NCBI GenBank assembly: GCA_028876335.1
Contig: JAGWSG010000089.1
Coordinates: 1 to 41,723 of the forward strand
DNA from: Acidobacteriota bacterium
Lineage (GTDB): Bacteria; Acidobacteriota; Terriglobia; Terriglobales; Acidobacteriaceae
DNA: 41,723 nt
Direction of reading: 5' to 3'
A program made the translations under genes and the position numbers. The notes beneath the pieces were generated by a model. That model had not been told where the DNA came from and did not search any database. It saw only the letters and a program-made list of their open reading frames with translations. Positions 2,004 through 17,477 of this stretch are shown here, in pieces; the first letter of the stretch is position 1, and each line of letters begins with the position of its first letter.

Positions 2004-3683
2004 GTGTCTTTGGCCGACTCAATCGCCCAACCTATGCCCGAGTCACCGGGCGCTGCACTGGCAAAAAGCGGTAACGAAAAGAGCATGAGTAATCCCAACC
2101 AGGTGGATTTGCATGCAGTCTGGAAGCCGCGCGTCAATCCATGGTTGATTGCGGCCACGGTGGCACTTGCCGCATTTATGGAGGTGCTGGATACCTCGAT
2201 TGCAAATGTGGCGCTTCAGCATATCGCCGGCAGCCTGGGAGCAAGCTCTGACGAAGCGACGTGGGTGCTCACAAGTTATCTGGTGTCCAATGCGATTGTG
2301 CTACCGCTGGGTGGATGGGCCTCAAGCCTGATGGGACGGCGCAATTTCTTCGCGTTCTGTATTGTCGTCTTTACCGTCTCAAGCTTTCTATGTGGCGCAG
2401 CTCCGTCATTGCCGCTTTTGCTGCTCTTCCGCGTAATTCAGGGCGCAGGCGGCGGTGGAATGCAGCCGATGGCGCAAGCCATCATGGCGGACAGTTTTGA
2501 GCCGCAAAAGCGCGGCCAGGCCTTCGCACTGTATGGGCTTGTAGCGGTGCTTGCGCCGTCGATTGGACCCACGCTGGGTGGATGGATTACCGACAACTAC
2601 TCATGGCGCTGGATCTTCTTCATCAACATTCCAGTGGGCATCGTGGCCTTCATTTTGCTCAACCGGCTCGTCGAGGATCCACCGTGGATCAAAGCCGACC
2701 CTTCAAAGCTGAAGAACATGGACTACCTGGGACTGACCTTCCTGACGTTGGCCATGGGCGGGATGCAGATCATGCTCGACAAGGGCGAGGAAAATGACTG
2801 GTTTTCCTCGGGCTTTATACGCTTCTTCGCGGCCATGTTCATTTTTGGAATGATCGGGTTGTTCGTCTGGGAGTGGAGAAAGAAAAATCCGCTGATCAAT
2901 TTGAAGTTATTCCGGTTCAAGAATTTCGCTATCTGTTGTTTTTTAATGCTGCTGGTAGGCGGAGTTCTGAATGCAAGTACCGTATTGCAGCCGGAGTTTA
3001 CCCAGATGCTGTTGGGGTATGACGCCACCACTGCGGGATTGGCGCTAACGGCGGGCGGATTTGCGCTTGTCATCATGATGCCGCTGGCAGGCTTTGCCAC
3101 AGGAAAAGTGTCGGCACGAACGCTTGTGGTGTGCGGCTTCATCATGTTCGCGCTCAGCTTTTGGTACGCGGCTGCAGTTACCAACATGAACATGACTTTT
3201 GCGCAGGCCTCATGGTTGCGCGTGATTCAGATGTTGCCATTGCCGTTCTGTTTTATTTCCATTACGAATGCAGCCTACGTTGGCATGCCTAAGGAAGAAA
3301 GCAACCAGGTGGCGGGACTGATTAACTTCGTACGCAATCTGGGCGGCAGCATCATGATTGCCATTACCAACGCGCAGTTAACCAACCGCTCCATGTGGCA
3401 CCAGGAACATCTTCAGAACTTCATGCAATCCGGAACGCTGGCTTTTCAACAGCAGGTGAAACAGCTGGAAGGGTTCTTCAGCGGTGTGGCGGGAAGCGGA
3501 AACGCGCGTGGAATGGCGCTGGGAGCGATCTACCGCCAGTTGAATCTGCAGGCGCTGACGCAGGGTTTCCAGGATGTCTATATGCAGCTTTGCTATATGT
3601 CGATCGTTCTTGTCCTGCTGGCTTTCATGCTGAATAAGAACAAACCGGGCGAGGGCGCGGGTGGTGGCGCGGCAATGCACTAA
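2004..3683 (+). CDS. DHA2-family MFS drug exporter (EmrB/QacA type, 14 TM)
   Basis: Proton-driven multidrug exporter of the DHA2 family in the inner membrane. Visible signatures are LDTSIANVAL (residues 62-71), a motif A variant GWASSLMGRR (104-113) and the antiporter motif C around GPTLGGWITD. The length of 559 residues and about fourteen hydrophobic segments match EmrB. The start is uncertain: GTG at 2004 has AAGGAG only 2 nt upstream, while ATG at 2034 or 2085 would trim the non-conserved N-terminus before the first helix. No EmrA-like membrane fusion protein is adjacent, so it may work alone or with a distant partner. A strong terminator lies 30 bp after the stop. Confidence 0.9.
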   Translation: MSLADSIAQPMPESPGAALAKSGNEKSMSNPNQVDLHAVWKPRVNPWLIAATVALAAFMEVLDTSIANVALQHIAGSLGASSDEATWVLTSYLVSNAIVLPLGGWASSLMGRRNFFAFCIVVFTVSSFLCGAAPSLPLLLLFRVIQGAGGGGMQPMAQAIMADSFEPQKRGQAFALYGLVAVLAPSIGPTLGGWITDNYSWRWIFFINIPVGIVAFILLNRLVEDPPWIKADPSKLKNMDYLGLTFLTLAMGGMQIMLDKGEENDWFSSGFIRFFAAMFIFGMIGLFVWEWRKKNPLINLKLFRFKNFAICCFLMLLVGGVLNASTVLQPEFTQMLLGYDATTAGLALTAGGFALVIMMPLAGFATGKVSARTLVVCGFIMFALSFWYAAAVTNMNMTFAQASWLRVIQMLPLPFCFISITNAAYVGMPKEESNQVAGLINFVRNLGGSIMIAITNAQLTNRSMWHQEHLQNFMQSGTLAFQQQVKQLEGFFSGVAGSGNARGMALGAIYRQLNLQALTQGFQDVYMQLCYMSIVLVLLAFMLNKNKPGEGAGGGAAMH

Positions 3684-3712
3684 TTCATCATTCTGATGTC
3701 CAAGGAAAACTC

Positions 3713-3746
3713 AGCCGGCGATGCACAGTGTGCGCGCCGGCTTTTT
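3713..3746 (+). terminator. Rho-independent terminator after the DHA2 exporter
   Basis: Perfect 8-bp arms AGCCGGCG (3713-3720) and CGCCGGCT (3735-3742) enclose an inner GCAC/GTGC stem, and the right arm runs into a TTTTT tract (3742-3746). It sits 30 bp after the exporter stop and should end that transcript. Confidence 0.9.
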
Positions 3747-3867
3747 GGGATGGGGAAATACGACCGAAAACGAAAGCGCCGGAAACCTTTCGGCTCCCGG
3801 CGCTCTCCGGATGTCTCATAAGCTCATCGAATCATCGTTCGCCCCTTCAGTCTATGGCGCAGCTTGC

Positions 3868-4612
3868 GGGTTACCCCACTCCCTTTGCCTTCCCTCCACG
3901 CCCGGTGTGCGTTTCAGAGTTGCCTCCTACTGTGCCCCTTCTTGACGCTTCAGGCGACCGCACCGCAGGTTGCCCCGCTCAGTCGGTCCTTTGACCATGC
4001 CGGCTTCGCGTTTCGGGTTGCCCCGTGTCCTGAGTTTCCTCAAGACTGCGATATTTTCGCGTCGCAGTTCGCACGGATCGGGTTGCCCCGTCTGCCTGCT
4101 CCCGCTCGGCTATTAACGCTGGTTTCCGGTTTCCCTTCATCCTGCGTCTCCGGCTTTGCCGCGATGAAGCTCCAGGTTGCCCTGTTTCTTCATCTTTCGG
4201 CGGTGCCTACTTCCTGATAGCGAGTTTCCCCGCCATCGTGTTTTTCGGCATCGCCGACAATTCATTCCCCGGGTCGCCCCGTTTCCTGAATCCTTCGGCC
4301 CGGCTGGCGTTCCTGCCGGGTTGCCCCGGCCGTTATGCCTTCCGGTATGCCAGTGGCGATTTTCCCGGCTCTCACCGGTTCCTCTTTCCTCTGGACTCGC
4401 CGTGGTTTGAACTTCCAAGTTTCCCTGGCTCTTCGCTCCGCCTGCGGCTCCCAGTTGCCTCGGCTTCAGGTTGCCCCGTTGCCGCGCATTCCTGAGTGCT
4501 GCCTTGAGCTGATTTTCGAGTTGCCCCGAATCTCTGTCTCTTGGCCTCCGCCTGCGCTCGGTCGAGTTGCCTCTTCTCTGCACCTGCGGCTGGGTCGATG
4601 ATGAGTCCCTGG
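3868..4612. repeat. Degenerate tandem array, about 15 units of ~49 bp
   Basis: A conserved box close to RGGTTGCCCCG recurs at 3868, 3917, 3967, 4015, 4080, 4127, 4173, 4222, 4271, 4318, about 4358, 4417, 4468, 4518 and 4564. Most intervals are 46-51 bp. One is 65 bp, and the 99 bp from 4318 to 4417 equals two units with a poor copy in the middle. GGTTGCCCCG is exact in five copies (3968, 4016, 4081, 4319, 4469). The sequence between boxes is divergent but often holds TTCGGC or GGCTTCG about halfway. Open frames on both strands show a 16-residue periodicity that only mirrors the DNA period, with no ribosome binding site, so I do not call them genes. Function unknown. Confidence 0.8.
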
Positions 4613-5150
4613 CTCGGCTCGAACTTTGCATCCTCGGCTTGCGCCGCGGATGAATCTTCGCGTCCAATCAGGTCCCGCAATTCGTTCCGGGTACGCTACG
4701 CGCTCTCGATCTTGTCTCTGCTGTCTGCCGCCGTTGCCGACTGCAAACCACATTTCAATCTCAATCCTGCGTCCGTTGCCTGGCCGGTGTTGCTGTCCGA
4801 TTTACTACTGGGCCATCAACTGATTGGGGACTGTATGCCCGTTGAATCTGTGGAAGCAAGTGCAAAAAATCAGTAAATCTGTGGATTTCACCAAGGCTGG
4901 TGCAGAAGTGGCGGGAAGGGGGGATCTTTTCGGGGAGAGTGAGGTGGTTTGCACCGAATTAGAGGCGAATTCGATCAACACAACGAAGATTTTTGAGTTG
5001 CAAAAAGCAACGTAAATGAGGCGATTTACGCAAAGAATAATTCGTTGGCTGATCGTGCTGGTGATATCCGTTTCATCGCGGATGGAGGGAGGTTATATCT
5101 GATTCCTCGTGTGCCGGCAAGATTCGCGGTCGTAGACGAGTGGTTCGCCC
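4613..5150. other. Non-coding stretch after the array
   Basis: The box fades here into weak matches (GTTGCC near 4733 and 4774). Only short frames without ribosome binding sites are present. No terminator, RNA gene or mobile-element end was recognised. The promoter of the following MFS gene is presumably at the right edge, but no convincing -35/-10 pair stands out. Confidence 0.5.
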
Positions 5151-5160
5151 ATGTACCCTA

Positions 5161-5168
5161 GGGAGGAG
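5161..5168 (+). promoter_or_regulatory. Strong ribosome binding site fixing the start at 5172
   Basis: GGGAGGAG at 5161-5168 stands just before ATG 5172 and would lie inside the gene if the earlier ATG at 5151 were used. It therefore selects the later start. Confidence 0.8.
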
Positions 5169-5171
5169 TTT

Positions 5172-6503
5172 ATGGGCTCAATCTCTCCATCTCCTTCCCC
5201 GGATGACAGGGAAAGGCGCGGCATTGAGGCGTTTGCCTCACGCGATTTTCAGCGTTATCAACTTGCGCGTGTCGCGGTAATCCTGGGTGCCGAGGCTCAG
5301 GCTGTTGCGGTGGCGTGGCAGGTGTATTCGATTACGCACCGGGCGCTGGATCTTGGTCTGACCGGGTTGGCTCTTTTCTTACCGGGGTTGCTGTTTCTTC
5401 TGCCTGCCGGGCATGTGGCGGATCGCTTTGACCGGCGTCAGGTGATACTTACCTGCTATTCGCTCCAGATACTTTGTACAGGCGCCCTGATTTGGTTCGC
5501 GCATGCCCAGTTGCAGAGCGTGCTGCCGATTTATGCGGTGCTGTTCCTGGTGGGCACGGGCAGGGCCTTTTCCGCACCAGCGAGCTCAGCGCTGATTCCG
5601 CATCTTGTGCCCGAGAAGCATTTTGTGAATGCAGTGACATGGGGCGGCGCGATCTTTCAATTCGCGAATATGACTGGCCCGGCGTTGGGCGGGCTGCTGT
5701 TCACATTTCCGCTGGTGCACTTTTTCCCCGGCACGACCATGCAGGGGGCGGGAATTGTCTACCTGTTCAATCTGATCACCTTACTCTGGTTCCTGGCGCT
5801 GATTAGCTCACTGCGGGTGCGGCTGGGACGGATGGAGCACAAGGCGACGTCACTGGATACGATGCTGGCGGGCTTCCGTTACGTATGGTCAATGAGGCTG
5901 CTTCTGGGGTCATTCTCACTGGATTTGTTTGTTGTGCTGCTGGGCGGAGCGGTTGCGCTGATGCCGATTTTTGCGAGCGAGATTCTGCACACGGGCCCGA
6001 CGGGGCTGGGGGTGCTACGAGCGGCGCCGGCGGTGGGTGCATTGAGCATGTCGCTGGTGATGGCGCGGTTTCCCATCAAGCGGAAGGCTGGGAAGCTGCT
6101 GTTTAGTTGTGTCGCGATTTATGGTGTTGCGATTGTTGTATTTGGGCTCTCGAAGAATCTGTGGCTTTCGCTAGGGGCTCTGGCGATCAGCGGCGCAGCG
6201 GATACGATCAGCGTGATTATTCGCGGATCCATGCTGCAGTTGGCCACTCCGCCCCAGATGCGCGGGCGAGTCAGTGCGGTCAACTCTTTGTTCATTGGAG
6301 CATCCAATGAGTTTGGAGAATTTGAGAGCGGTGTAACCGCGCAGTGGTTAGGGGCTGTGCGTGCCGTGGTGATCGGCGGCATCGGTTCTTTAATGGTCTC
6401 GGGAATCTGGTCGGTACTTTTCCCGAGCCTGCGCAACGCGGATCAGCTTACGGCTGAGGCGCTGCGTGCGTCGGAGAAGGGACATACGGAGGCAACTGCT
6501 TGA
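5172..6503 (+). CDS. MFS transporter, EntS/MFS_3-like
   Basis: Inner-membrane permease of 443 residues from the group that includes enterobactin exporter EntS. The N-terminal FASRDFQRYQLARVAVILG and motif A GHVADRFDRRQV (residues 80-91) support this, along with about twelve hydrophobic segments. The start ATG at 5172 is chosen over ATG 5151 because of the ribosome binding site at 5161-5168. The stop codon overlaps the start of the next gene (TTGA, 6500-6503), so the two products are made together. The substrate is not evident. No siderophore genes are nearby, so an EntS-like role is only a family inference. Confidence 0.85.
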   Translation: MGSISPSPSPDDRERRGIEAFASRDFQRYQLARVAVILGAEAQAVAVAWQVYSITHRALDLGLTGLALFLPGLLFLLPAGHVADRFDRRQVILTCYSLQILCTGALIWFAHAQLQSVLPIYAVLFLVGTGRAFSAPASSALIPHLVPEKHFVNAVTWGGAIFQFANMTGPALGGLLFTFPLVHFFPGTTMQGAGIVYLFNLITLLWFLALISSLRVRLGRMEHKATSLDTMLAGFRYVWSMRLLLGSFSLDLFVVLLGGAVALMPIFASEILHTGPTGLGVLRAAPAVGALSMSLVMARFPIKRKAGKLLFSCVAIYGVAIVVFGLSKNLWLSLGALAISGAADTISVIIRGSMLQLATPPQMRGRVSAVNSLFIGASNEFGEFESGVTAQWLGAVRAVVIGGIGSLMVSGIWSVLFPSLRNADQLTAEALRASEKGHTEATA

Positions 6504-15872: not shown

Positions 15873-17477
15873 CTAACGCTGCAACAGATCGATGGGCTGG
15901 GTGAAGTCTGTTACGCGGATGTGTTTTGCGAGCGACGGGTGCTGGCGCTGGACGGCGAGGTACATTTCCCACGCAACCTTGCGGTAGCTGAAGTGGCCGG
16001 CGGGCGCGGAGCGGAGCTCACTGATGTATTGGGCTTCGGCGAAGTCCATTTTGAAGAGGCAGCGGAGGCGCGTGGCCAGCGGCAGGACGTACAGCGCGGA
16101 GGATGCAGCCTCAGGCGCGGAGGCGGCGGCGATGGTGGCGCTGGCTTCATGCGCGGCTTCAACGGCGGCCTGATAGTCGTGGACGATACCTGCTTCTTCA
16201 AGCCCGGCGATGTCACCGGAGTGGGGTGTTTCATAGCCGTGGACGGCGGTGAAGCCCTGCTTGATTTGCGTGACGCGACGGTGGCGGTGCATGTCGCGGA
16301 AGCCGCCGACGTCCATGAGGATGTCAAAGCGTAGCGCGGCTCCAGCGTGGAAGGCGCGGAGCGCTTCGTCGTGACGGCCGCGATGGCGCAGACCGGTTTC
16401 GATGATTTCATTAATGCGCGCGGCGGGAAGACCGGCGGCGGCGTCGCGGACCTGACGGTAGGAGTAGTCGCTGCCCCAGTAGAGCAGCGTGGCGGCTAAC
16501 TCGACTTCGAGCGACTCGGTGCGTTCGACGAGATCGACGAGCGGGGCGGGGGCGATGTCTGCGCCCTGCATGGTTTCGCGGGCGATCTGCTCGAGAAGGT
16601 TGCGGGTCTGGATGAGGTACTCGTTGGGGACCGCGTATTTGACGAGCGTGGGCGCGGTGCGGACTTCGCGCGTGAGCAGGCTGGCAGCTTCTTCGGCGAG
16701 CTCGGGCTGGGTGGAGAGTTTGGCAACGAATTTTTCTCCGGCGGCGGCGTTGACGTTCCACGCGGCGCCGGTGGCGGCATCACGGAGCTTTTCGCCGAGC
16801 TGGCGGACTTCCGCAATGGGATGCGAGAGCAGACGCGAGACCTGGGTCTCAAGCGTGCGTGCGTTGACGATCTGTCCGAGCGATGTATTGGTAGCGAGCG
16901 GGAGCAGGTAACGGGCGACGTCAAAGGCGCGAGCGCGCAGCGTGCGCTCGTAGGCCTCGGGCTTCATGGCCTCGGGGCGTGCGACGCGCTGGCGCAGTGC
17001 GTCCTGCACGGAGGCTGTGGTGCTCTGGTATGCGGAGAAGAGGTTCTGGACGGTGGAGGCGTAGAGTTTTGCCGACGCAGAGTCTTGTCCGAAGTCAGGA
17101 AAATACCAGCCTGACTTCATGAAGTTCTGGTAGCGGGTGGAGCGTTCCTGGCCGTCCCAGCGCTGCTCGTCGACGAGGACGATGGCGGCGAGGAGGCTGA
17201 GGCGCTCGATGGCGAAGGCGATGTGGGCCAGGTCGGCGATGGAGCGGTGGCCGTATTGGAAGTAAAAGGTGTTGAGAAACTGCTCGGCCCGCTGGGCGCT
17301 GATTTCCGCCAGCGACTCCTTCATGGAAAGGGCGGAGCGGGAGTATTTGGCCATGGCGTAGGCAAGTACTTCAGGATCAGCACCATGGACGGCGTAGACA
17401 TCAGTCTGGTTGGCGGCGCCTTCGGGCAGAAAACTTTCACTGGACATTCGATTCGACTCGCGACAAGAATACTTCAT
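15873..17477 (-). CDS. Duplicated ThyX-like (FAD-dependent thymidylate synthase family) protein
   Basis: A 534-residue protein about twice the usual ThyX length, with two ThyX-like halves. The first half has YGHRSIADLAHIAFAIERLS (75-94) and then DEQRWDGQERSTRYQNF (103-119). There the RHR of the ThyX signature is lost but the E-x-S-T-R-Y end is kept. The second half has RHRGRHDEALRAFHAG (364-379) and RHRRVTQIKQGF (398-409), keeping RHR but losing the end. In classic ThyX both parts are needed in one motif to bind FAD and dUMP. The protein could combine half-sites in an internal pseudo-dimer or have changed function. ATG 17447 is an alternative start. No thyA or dfrA gene is in the window. Confidence 0.75.
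   Translation of the reverse strand: MKYSCRESNRMSSESFLPEGAANQTDVYAVHGADPEVLAYAMAKYSRSALSMKESLAEISAQRAEQFLNTFYFQYGHRSIADLAHIAFAIERLSLLAAIVLVDEQRWDGQERSTRYQNFMKSGWYFPDFGQDSASAKLYASTVQNLFSAYQSTTASVQDALRQRVARPEAMKPEAYERTLRARAFDVARYLLPLATNTSLGQIVNARTLETQVSRLLSHPIAEVRQLGEKLRDAATGAAWNVNAAAGEKFVAKLSTQPELAEEAASLLTREVRTAPTLVKYAVPNEYLIQTRNLLEQIARETMQGADIAPAPLVDLVERTESLEVELAATLLYWGSDYSYRQVRDAAAGLPAARINEIIETGLRHRGRHDEALRAFHAGAALRFDILMDVGGFRDMHRHRRVTQIKQGFTAVHGYETPHSGDIAGLEEAGIVHDYQAAVEAAHEASATIAAASAPEAASSALYVLPLATRLRCLFKMDFAEAQYISELRSAPAGHFSYRKVAWEMYLAVQRQHPSLAKHIRVTDFTQPIDLLQR

Follow-up and report, generated by a model that had tools for sequence, protein, structure and literature searches.

A candidate gene for a large structured noncoding RNA with tandem GNRA-tetraloop hairpin modules in Acidobacteriaceae

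Results

Organization of the locus

The window is the whole 41,723-nt stretch analyzed from contig JAGWSG010000089.1 of an Acidobacteriota bacterium (family Acidobacteriaceae). An MFS transporter gene (2004–3683; Pfam MFS_1) lies to the left of a degenerate tandem array, which on the minus strand is preceded by a conserved 5′ block, a 5′ domain and a leader, and followed by a 3′ tail and an intrinsic terminator (Table 1). The array region had been described as gene-free, which agrees with the absence of a Pfam match for the one open reading frame scanned there (176 aa, minus strand, 4137–4667); the Pfam scan took in four neighbouring genes of the window. The interval originally assigned to the array, 3868–4612, does cover it, but conserved sequence runs to the right to about 4904. 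The original prediction overlooked which strand is sense and that a leader and a 5′ block lie to the right, and it did not assign the terminator to the array.

Table 1. Layout of the predicted RNA gene (minus strand, approximately 4904 to 3765), in 5′ to 3′ order.
Feature	Coordinates	Strand	Basis or remarks
Conserved 5′ block (promoter and/or RNA 5′ end)	4845..4904	-	TGCACYANNNTGGTGAWATCCACAG, ~12 nt, TTTTGCACTTGCWTCCACAGATT
5′ domain with conserved stretches (e.g. CAGTTGRTGACCCTGTAGGGAATTGG)	4675..4844	-	Alignment and RNAalifold; structure partly resolved
Leader	4575..4674	-	Hairpin CGAAGATTCATCC..GGATGCAAAGTTCG at 4620-4660
Tandem GNRA-tetraloop hairpin array	3868..4580	-	Period ~49 nt; homologous arrays in relatives
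Array loop starts (low coordinate)	4567, 4521, 4471, 4420, 4370, 4321, 4274, 4225	-	Hairpin listing
Array loop starts, continued	4177, 4083, 4035, 4018, 3970, 3920, 3871	-	Hairpin listing
3′ tail, last hairpin to terminator	3808..3867	-	Resembles relatives by eye
Intrinsic terminator	3765..3807	-	16-bp stem (3772-3807), GAAA loop, tail GTTTTC

The 5′ block is present in 22 of the 23 aligned loci, with conservation beginning abruptly at TGCAC; the remaining locus (L146) has a run of N nearby. Its core pattern was found in 34/80 genus genomes at 35 places (once in 33 genomes, twice in one), the reversed control gave none, and the block is nearly unique to the RNA locus. No sigma-70 consensus was found in a promoter scan of the window locus. 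Two CCACA motifs, which we take to resemble part of a DnaA box, stand in the minus-strand 5′ block 31 or 32 nt apart at all 35 places, under a pattern that permitted a wider range of spacings. One genome (G033, locus L214) carries two 5′ blocks ~870 bp apart (C66:15654–15689 and 16523–16558), which suggests a duplicated locus.

Two covariance models of the leader were used, R1 from 7 sequences and R2 from 26 leaders; the window leader, itself included in both, matched them with E-values of 4e-24 and 8e-27, respectively. Across the 26 leaders, 98.2% of cells in the hairpin are paired and 18 cells show double changes (4.2 in shuffles), as scored on the same alignment from which the structure was derived. 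The region 4575–4860 (minus strand), which includes the 5′ domain, has a fold z-score of -1.8, little better than shuffles. In one MAG (L052, 7434–7582, minus strand) an extra repeat unit interrupts the leader region, as though insertion of units were possible there.

The terminator carries a T-rich tail on the sense strand. It is the single terminator-like site in window 3600–5200, where shuffles average 2.8, so that the count alone carries no weight; the weight comes instead from its position and from like hairpins in relatives, which a narrow pattern picked up in 15 of 31 loci, downstream of the leader. A strong terminator isolating the array on its left was part of the original prediction. 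The hairpin exists, but its T-run belongs to the minus strand; the hairpin would therefore mark where the transcript of the array itself ends and would not isolate the array. A typical locus comprises the conserved 5′ block, the leader hairpin, 1–16 hairpins ~49 nt apart (by the hairpin caller) and the terminator, and where readable the RNA gene spans ~0.4 to 1.1 kb, counted from the 5′ block through the terminator-like pattern.

Period and hairpins of the window array

About fifteen boxes, exact in five copies and mostly 46–51 bp apart, had been reported. Five exact copies of GGTTGCCCCG were indeed found (3968, 4016, 4081, 4319 and 4469), and three further array copies differ by one mismatch (4175, 4272 and 4519). 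With one mismatch at most, GKTTGCCCCG matched 14 times in the whole window against 6.8 expected, and 14 matches were reached in none of 100 shuffles. The 4-mer autocorrelation of the array, summed over lags 47–51, was 63 vs. 24.5 ± 6.9 in dinucleotide shuffles, a value equalled at any lag from 20 to 120 in 1/500 shuffles; lags 96–97 were also among the top eight. The ~49-nt period is therefore real, and the autocorrelation check proposed for it leaves the original claim standing. Tandem Repeats Finder did not report the array, the units of which are ~37–43% identical to one another over the 40 positions compared.

Read on the minus strand, the box is CGGG-GCAA-CCCG, a hairpin tip capped by a GNRA tetraloop. 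Variants of the box keep the GNRA rule, with GGTTTCCCCG giving GAAA, GGTCGCCCCG giving GCGA and GGTTACCCC giving GTAA. GNRA hairpins on the minus strand between 3860 and 4620 number 15, 14 and 8 for minimum stem lengths of 3, 4 and 5 bp (shuffle means 1.7, 0.57 and 0.16), and the same scan found none on the plus strand. The loops of the 15 hairpins with stems of at least 3 bp lie between 3871 and 4570, and 12 of their 14 intervals are 46–51 nt, in line with the number and spacing of boxes first described; the two others are 94 nt (one unit without such a hairpin) and 17 nt (one hairpin out of phase). Fold z-scores of the array were -8.4 on the minus strand and -3.5 on the plus strand (60 shuffles per strand).

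Structure and covariation of the unit hairpin

Of 31 loci, 18 were used for the unit, loop, linker and open-run analyses (215 units), short, divergent and duplicate arrays being left out; one analysis behind the commonest unit form drops L149 as well. That form is GAUG-c-AG-GA-UUCGGG-GNRA-CCCGAA-GA-UU-CAUC, in which the inner stem is bounded by a tandem G.A mismatch, followed outward by the covarying pairs -9 and -10, a one-base bulge and the outer pairs. Of 484 position-pair z-scores, the top eleven without exception fall on the hairpin diagonal, led by (-10,+10) at 10.5, (-2,+2) at 10.1, (-5,+5) at 9.5 and (-9,+9) at 7.7, whereas the best off-diagonal pair reaches 4.0; the hairpins were chosen by a score on loop, pairs 1–5 and spacing near 49, a choice that biases intervals, loop counts and z-values alike and leaves only the pairs beyond 5 untouched by the finder's selection. 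Pairs (-10,+10) and (-9,+9) thus covary though unused in hairpin finding. The z-scores come from permuting 3′ arms within arrays, a procedure that leaves shared ancestry in place, and are therefore fairly judged against the off-diagonal level. A register that pairs one box with the next was rejected on the same comparison (best z 4.0 vs. 10.5).

Pairing is kept through compensatory change: 69 of the 215 units, one row of which is misaligned by gaps, show 90 double-change cells vs. 22.7 ± 7.5 (0/500 shuffles) and are 84.9% paired vs. 71.5% when shuffled, and sliding the alignment by one column lowers pairing to 50.5% or less. Pair (-6,+6) is unpaired in 31/68 sampled units. When loops were called by stem and spacing alone, in stretches delimited by the biased hairpin finder, 165/169 were GNRA and none was GNYA. 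The loop-closing pair is G-C in 206/215 units, a GGAA loop occurs in 1/215, and 176/197 intervals in the 18 arrays are 47–51 nt, a spacing for which the caller favours 49.

Over eight pairs, G-U wobbles outnumber A-C by 184 to 46, mostly from pairs 1–5, which the finder scores; at the unbiased pairs 6, 9 and 10 the counts are 56 vs. 39 (pair 6 alone, 17 vs. 19), and the strand signal from wobble pairs is there weak. A short linker hairpin between the GNRA hairpins is moderately supported, since stems of 4 bp or more occur in 36% of 191 linkers but in 12.8 ± 2.2% of shuffled ones. A kink-turn reading of the tandem G.A was rejected because pairs 9 and 10 covary and make the bulge too short. The search for tetraloop-receptor covariation gave nothing convincing, the best z being 4.5 within the same hairpin and 3.0 outside it (140 positions).

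Divergent loci

Ninety-eight units from 11 loci represent a divergent subtype in which the closing pair is mostly C-G or U-G (82/98 including U-A). These loci were picked for having arrays, and the caller rewards GNRA loops and pairs 1–4; at pairs not used for finding, covariation is again seen at (-11,+11), (-12,+12) and (-9,+9), with z of 5.6, 4.9 and 4.2. In seven (L202, L203, L205, L206, L207, L210 and L211) of 18 divergent loci with a 5′ block, the hairpin chains scored no higher than the best of 20 shuffles and the caller could not tell them from shuffled sequence; those of L214 and L191 were 1–2 points above that best. The seven are perhaps a third subtype.

Three-unit super-period

Over the 16 arrays with at least seven units (L149 and L157 dropped), units three apart are more alike than others (mean excess 0.024; 0/2000 permutations), and periods of 2, 4 and 5 show no excess similarity. 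The super-period is individually significant in 6/16 arrays (L146, L151, L154, L155, L159 and L141); the array of the window lacks it (p = 0.67). Its phase agrees between species in 22/55 array pairs (p < 0.05), in a test of 11 of the 18 arrays picked after the super-period result. For units separated by 147 nt, the mismatch rate is much the same at all three codon positions (0.451/0.434/0.459), and coding therefore does not explain the super-period.

Distribution and neighbourhood

The RNA gene is present in more than half of the genus sample, with matches in 54/80 genomes by the union of R1 (41), the 5′ block only (8) and R2 only (5, E ≤ 3.5e-5). One of these (G013) is counted on an R1 E-value of 4e-4 alone, and three genomes with R2 E-values of 0.002–0.004 (G008, G255 and G274) are not counted; 26/80 gave no match at the thresholds used. 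At E ≤ 0.01, R1 matched 41/80 genus genomes and 6/200 genomes of a family sample, and R2 matched 46/398 in a family sample that takes in part of the genus. Two other genera of the family also carry the gene: nine R2-matched genomes lie outside the genus, two of them strong (G188, E 2e-21; G430, E 3.5e-17) and seven at 8e-4 or weaker, and by eye the locus of G430, a member of another genus, shows 5′ block, leader, short array and terminator. All four R2 matches in the phylum sample (4/396, E ≤ 0.001) belong to the genus.

A two-box pattern matched 7/60 relatives, one of which (G057) shows no such hairpin. Of 87 collection stretches with three boxes, only those from two Acidobacteriaceae MAGs (L044 and L052) carry the R2 leader. 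On an acidobacterial (gp7) contig, L060, three boxes stand at 42-nt spacing (~4706–4798), and the R2 leader was not found there. Several unrelated genomes (L019, L022, L058 and others) hold the box at a strict 61-nt period, with 131-nt matches every 183 nt; such regularity is expected of CRISPR arrays, and the box probably coincides with a CRISPR repeat by chance.

A phage or plasmid origin was rejected: window 4575–4920 had no match in the phage and plasmid collections, the exact 22-base pattern of the 5′ block had none in viral contigs, and R2 matched 0/40 viral stretches holding two boxes. A homologue of the MFS transporter gene lies downstream in 11/21 loci; in the other 10 it was not seen in the stretch examined, some of which are cut by contig ends. 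The RNA gene is not tied to one neighbouring gene.

Discussion

A probable structured RNA gene with a possible docking role

Judged from its sequence, the array is almost certainly part of a minus-strand gene whose product is a structured noncoding RNA of large size (~1.1 kb), and this case is carried by the GNRA loop rule and the covariation. The original prediction had weighed an RNA with repeated modules together with a set of protein-binding sites. The former gains from the compensatory stem changes, the GNRA loops, the leader and the minus-strand terminator; the latter, taken as DNA sites, is disfavoured, as it is the pairing, not the letters of the box, that is kept.

A chromosomal gene would thus yield an RNA consisting of the conserved 5′ block, leader hairpin, ~15 modules, 3′ tail and intrinsic terminator, which we predict to be transcribed and stable. 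In each module a short linker hairpin would accompany a stem that is capped by a GNRA loop and made up of an inner stem, often a tandem G.A, and an outer stem; the module would dock a putative protein or RNA partner, such that the number of modules sets the docking capacity. Multivalent docking or titration best fits units that vary in number yet keep a nearly fixed period and a hairpin face in common, and the likeliest function is accordingly conceived as that of a multivalent scaffold or titrating RNA. We propose docking by the array modules tentatively, at somewhat less than even confidence; the structured RNA gene and multivalent docking taken together, with the weight on the gene, are likely.

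Solenoid proteins repeat one fold and thereby give scaffolds of any length. The predicted RNA might be their analogue, a repeat-RNA solenoid whose self-similar GNRA-hairpin modules vary in number and, in some species, come in groups of three (147 nt). It would serve as a size-tunable scaffold and evolve by gain and loss of modules under selection on fold and spacing; this is a speculative reading, which we hold more loosely than docking itself. If true, large noncoding RNAs would have a new design principle, namely a natural RNA counterpart of solenoid proteins in which the number of modules can differ freely between species. Over half of the sampled members of a soil-bacterial genus would gain an uncatalogued RNA gene, and the natural series of array lengths could be used for finding the partner of the RNA.

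Alternative explanations

The main rival of the docking reading is a regular assembly of RNA only, in which GNRA loops dock in the helices of other modules to build a regular rod or coil, or a homo-oligomer as in ROOL and GOLLD, and the assembly is itself functional. GNRA loops are established docking elements, and the narrow range of intervals (for which the caller favours 49) and the three-unit super-period, with its phase agreement between species, would suit such an architecture. Natural RNA-only assemblies exist (PMC12286853). Loop type nevertheless shows no convincing covariation with a neighbouring helix, and the super-period, significant in a minority of arrays, is missing from the window's own; we regard self-assembly as possible yet rather unlikely. 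Tandem hairpins in one RNA and GGA-containing stretches between them could also speak for a sponge of a CsrA-type translational regulator, as in CsrB/RsmZ. This is very improbable, given that the loops are GNRA, with GGAA almost absent, and that CsrA (PF02599) was found in 0/79 genus genomes, among which 42 reach 90% completeness or more with contamination no higher than 5%, by a search that matches 3/14 control genomes (E. coli, B. subtilis and T. maritima). For CsrA itself the sponge is excluded unless a diverged CsrA escaped the model; a sponge for a regulator unrelated to CsrA falls under the main docking reading.

Regular spacing, a conserved box with dyad symmetry and the small wobble asymmetry at unbiased pairs would be compatible with an array of double-stranded DNA-binding sites, but the GNRA rule holds on one strand, the fold excess is larger on the minus strand, and next to the array stand a minus-strand terminator and a leader in which base changes are compensatory. 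The closing pair, moreover, shifts from G-C to mostly C-G or U-G in the divergent subtype, which keeps its hairpins and covariation, so that pairing is conserved rather than box letters; we give DNA sites very little credence. A coding sequence built of 49-residue repeats (3 × 49 nt), whether decayed or evolving fast, would account for a 147-nt super-period, and the longest sense open run reaches shuffle p ≤ 0.05 in 5/18 arrays, being longer than the antisense run in 3 of these 5. Yet antisense runs are as long or longer in 11/18 arrays, T content is 9–15%, interval lengths shift the frame, the stems covary, there is no codon-phase signal in the mismatches, and the window open reading frame is without a Pfam match. 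The check for decayed coding sequence raised with the original prediction has hence not overturned it, and a coding origin is scarcely credible. Somewhat less remote, though still improbable, is the view that a hairpin next to a transcribed leader was duplicated in tandem by neutral processes and has no function of its own, which would explain the varying hairpin number and fast sequence turnover; against this, pairing, GNRA loop and spacing persist among window units as diverged as they are, which points to selection on structure.

Comparison with known systems

Searches with Rfam 15 gave two matches in window 3600–5200, both below gathering (E 0.1 and 0.58), and none at E ≤ 0.5 in 20 relative loci; a known Rfam family (including Acido-1, OLE, GOLLD and ROOL) was rejected, there being no covariance-model match above gathering. 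To our knowledge, OLE, GOLLD and ROOL are without tandem modules. The predicted RNA resembles these three as a large structured noncoding RNA of poorly known function (PMC12286853). GOLLD and ROOL are described as residing in phages and prophages (PMC12286853), unlike the array RNA, which was not found in phage or plasmid collections or viral contigs. Acido-1 (RF01686) and Acido-Lenti-1 (RF01687) are noncoding RNA candidates of Acidobacteria (PMC2864571). Neither matched window 3600–5200 (E ≤ 1) or the 20 relative loci (E ≤ 0.5).

With CRISPR arrays the locus shares regularly spaced repeats in non-coding DNA, but it lacks the alternation of near-identical repeats and unrelated spacers: its units diverge over their full length and keep their pairing. 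Sponge RNAs of the CsrB/RsmZ type present many similar hairpins, with GGA loops, in one transcript. The predicted transcript is like them in its many similar hairpins and unlike them in its GNRA loops, its near-fixed 49-nt period and the absence of CsrA from the genus genomes searched. No paper on such an RNA was among the matches listed in a literature search, the scope of which left out most subscription journals, and we know of no described RNA of modular, solenoid-like design. Large structured RNAs and tandem-hairpin sponges are already known; a modular, solenoid-like design would be new.
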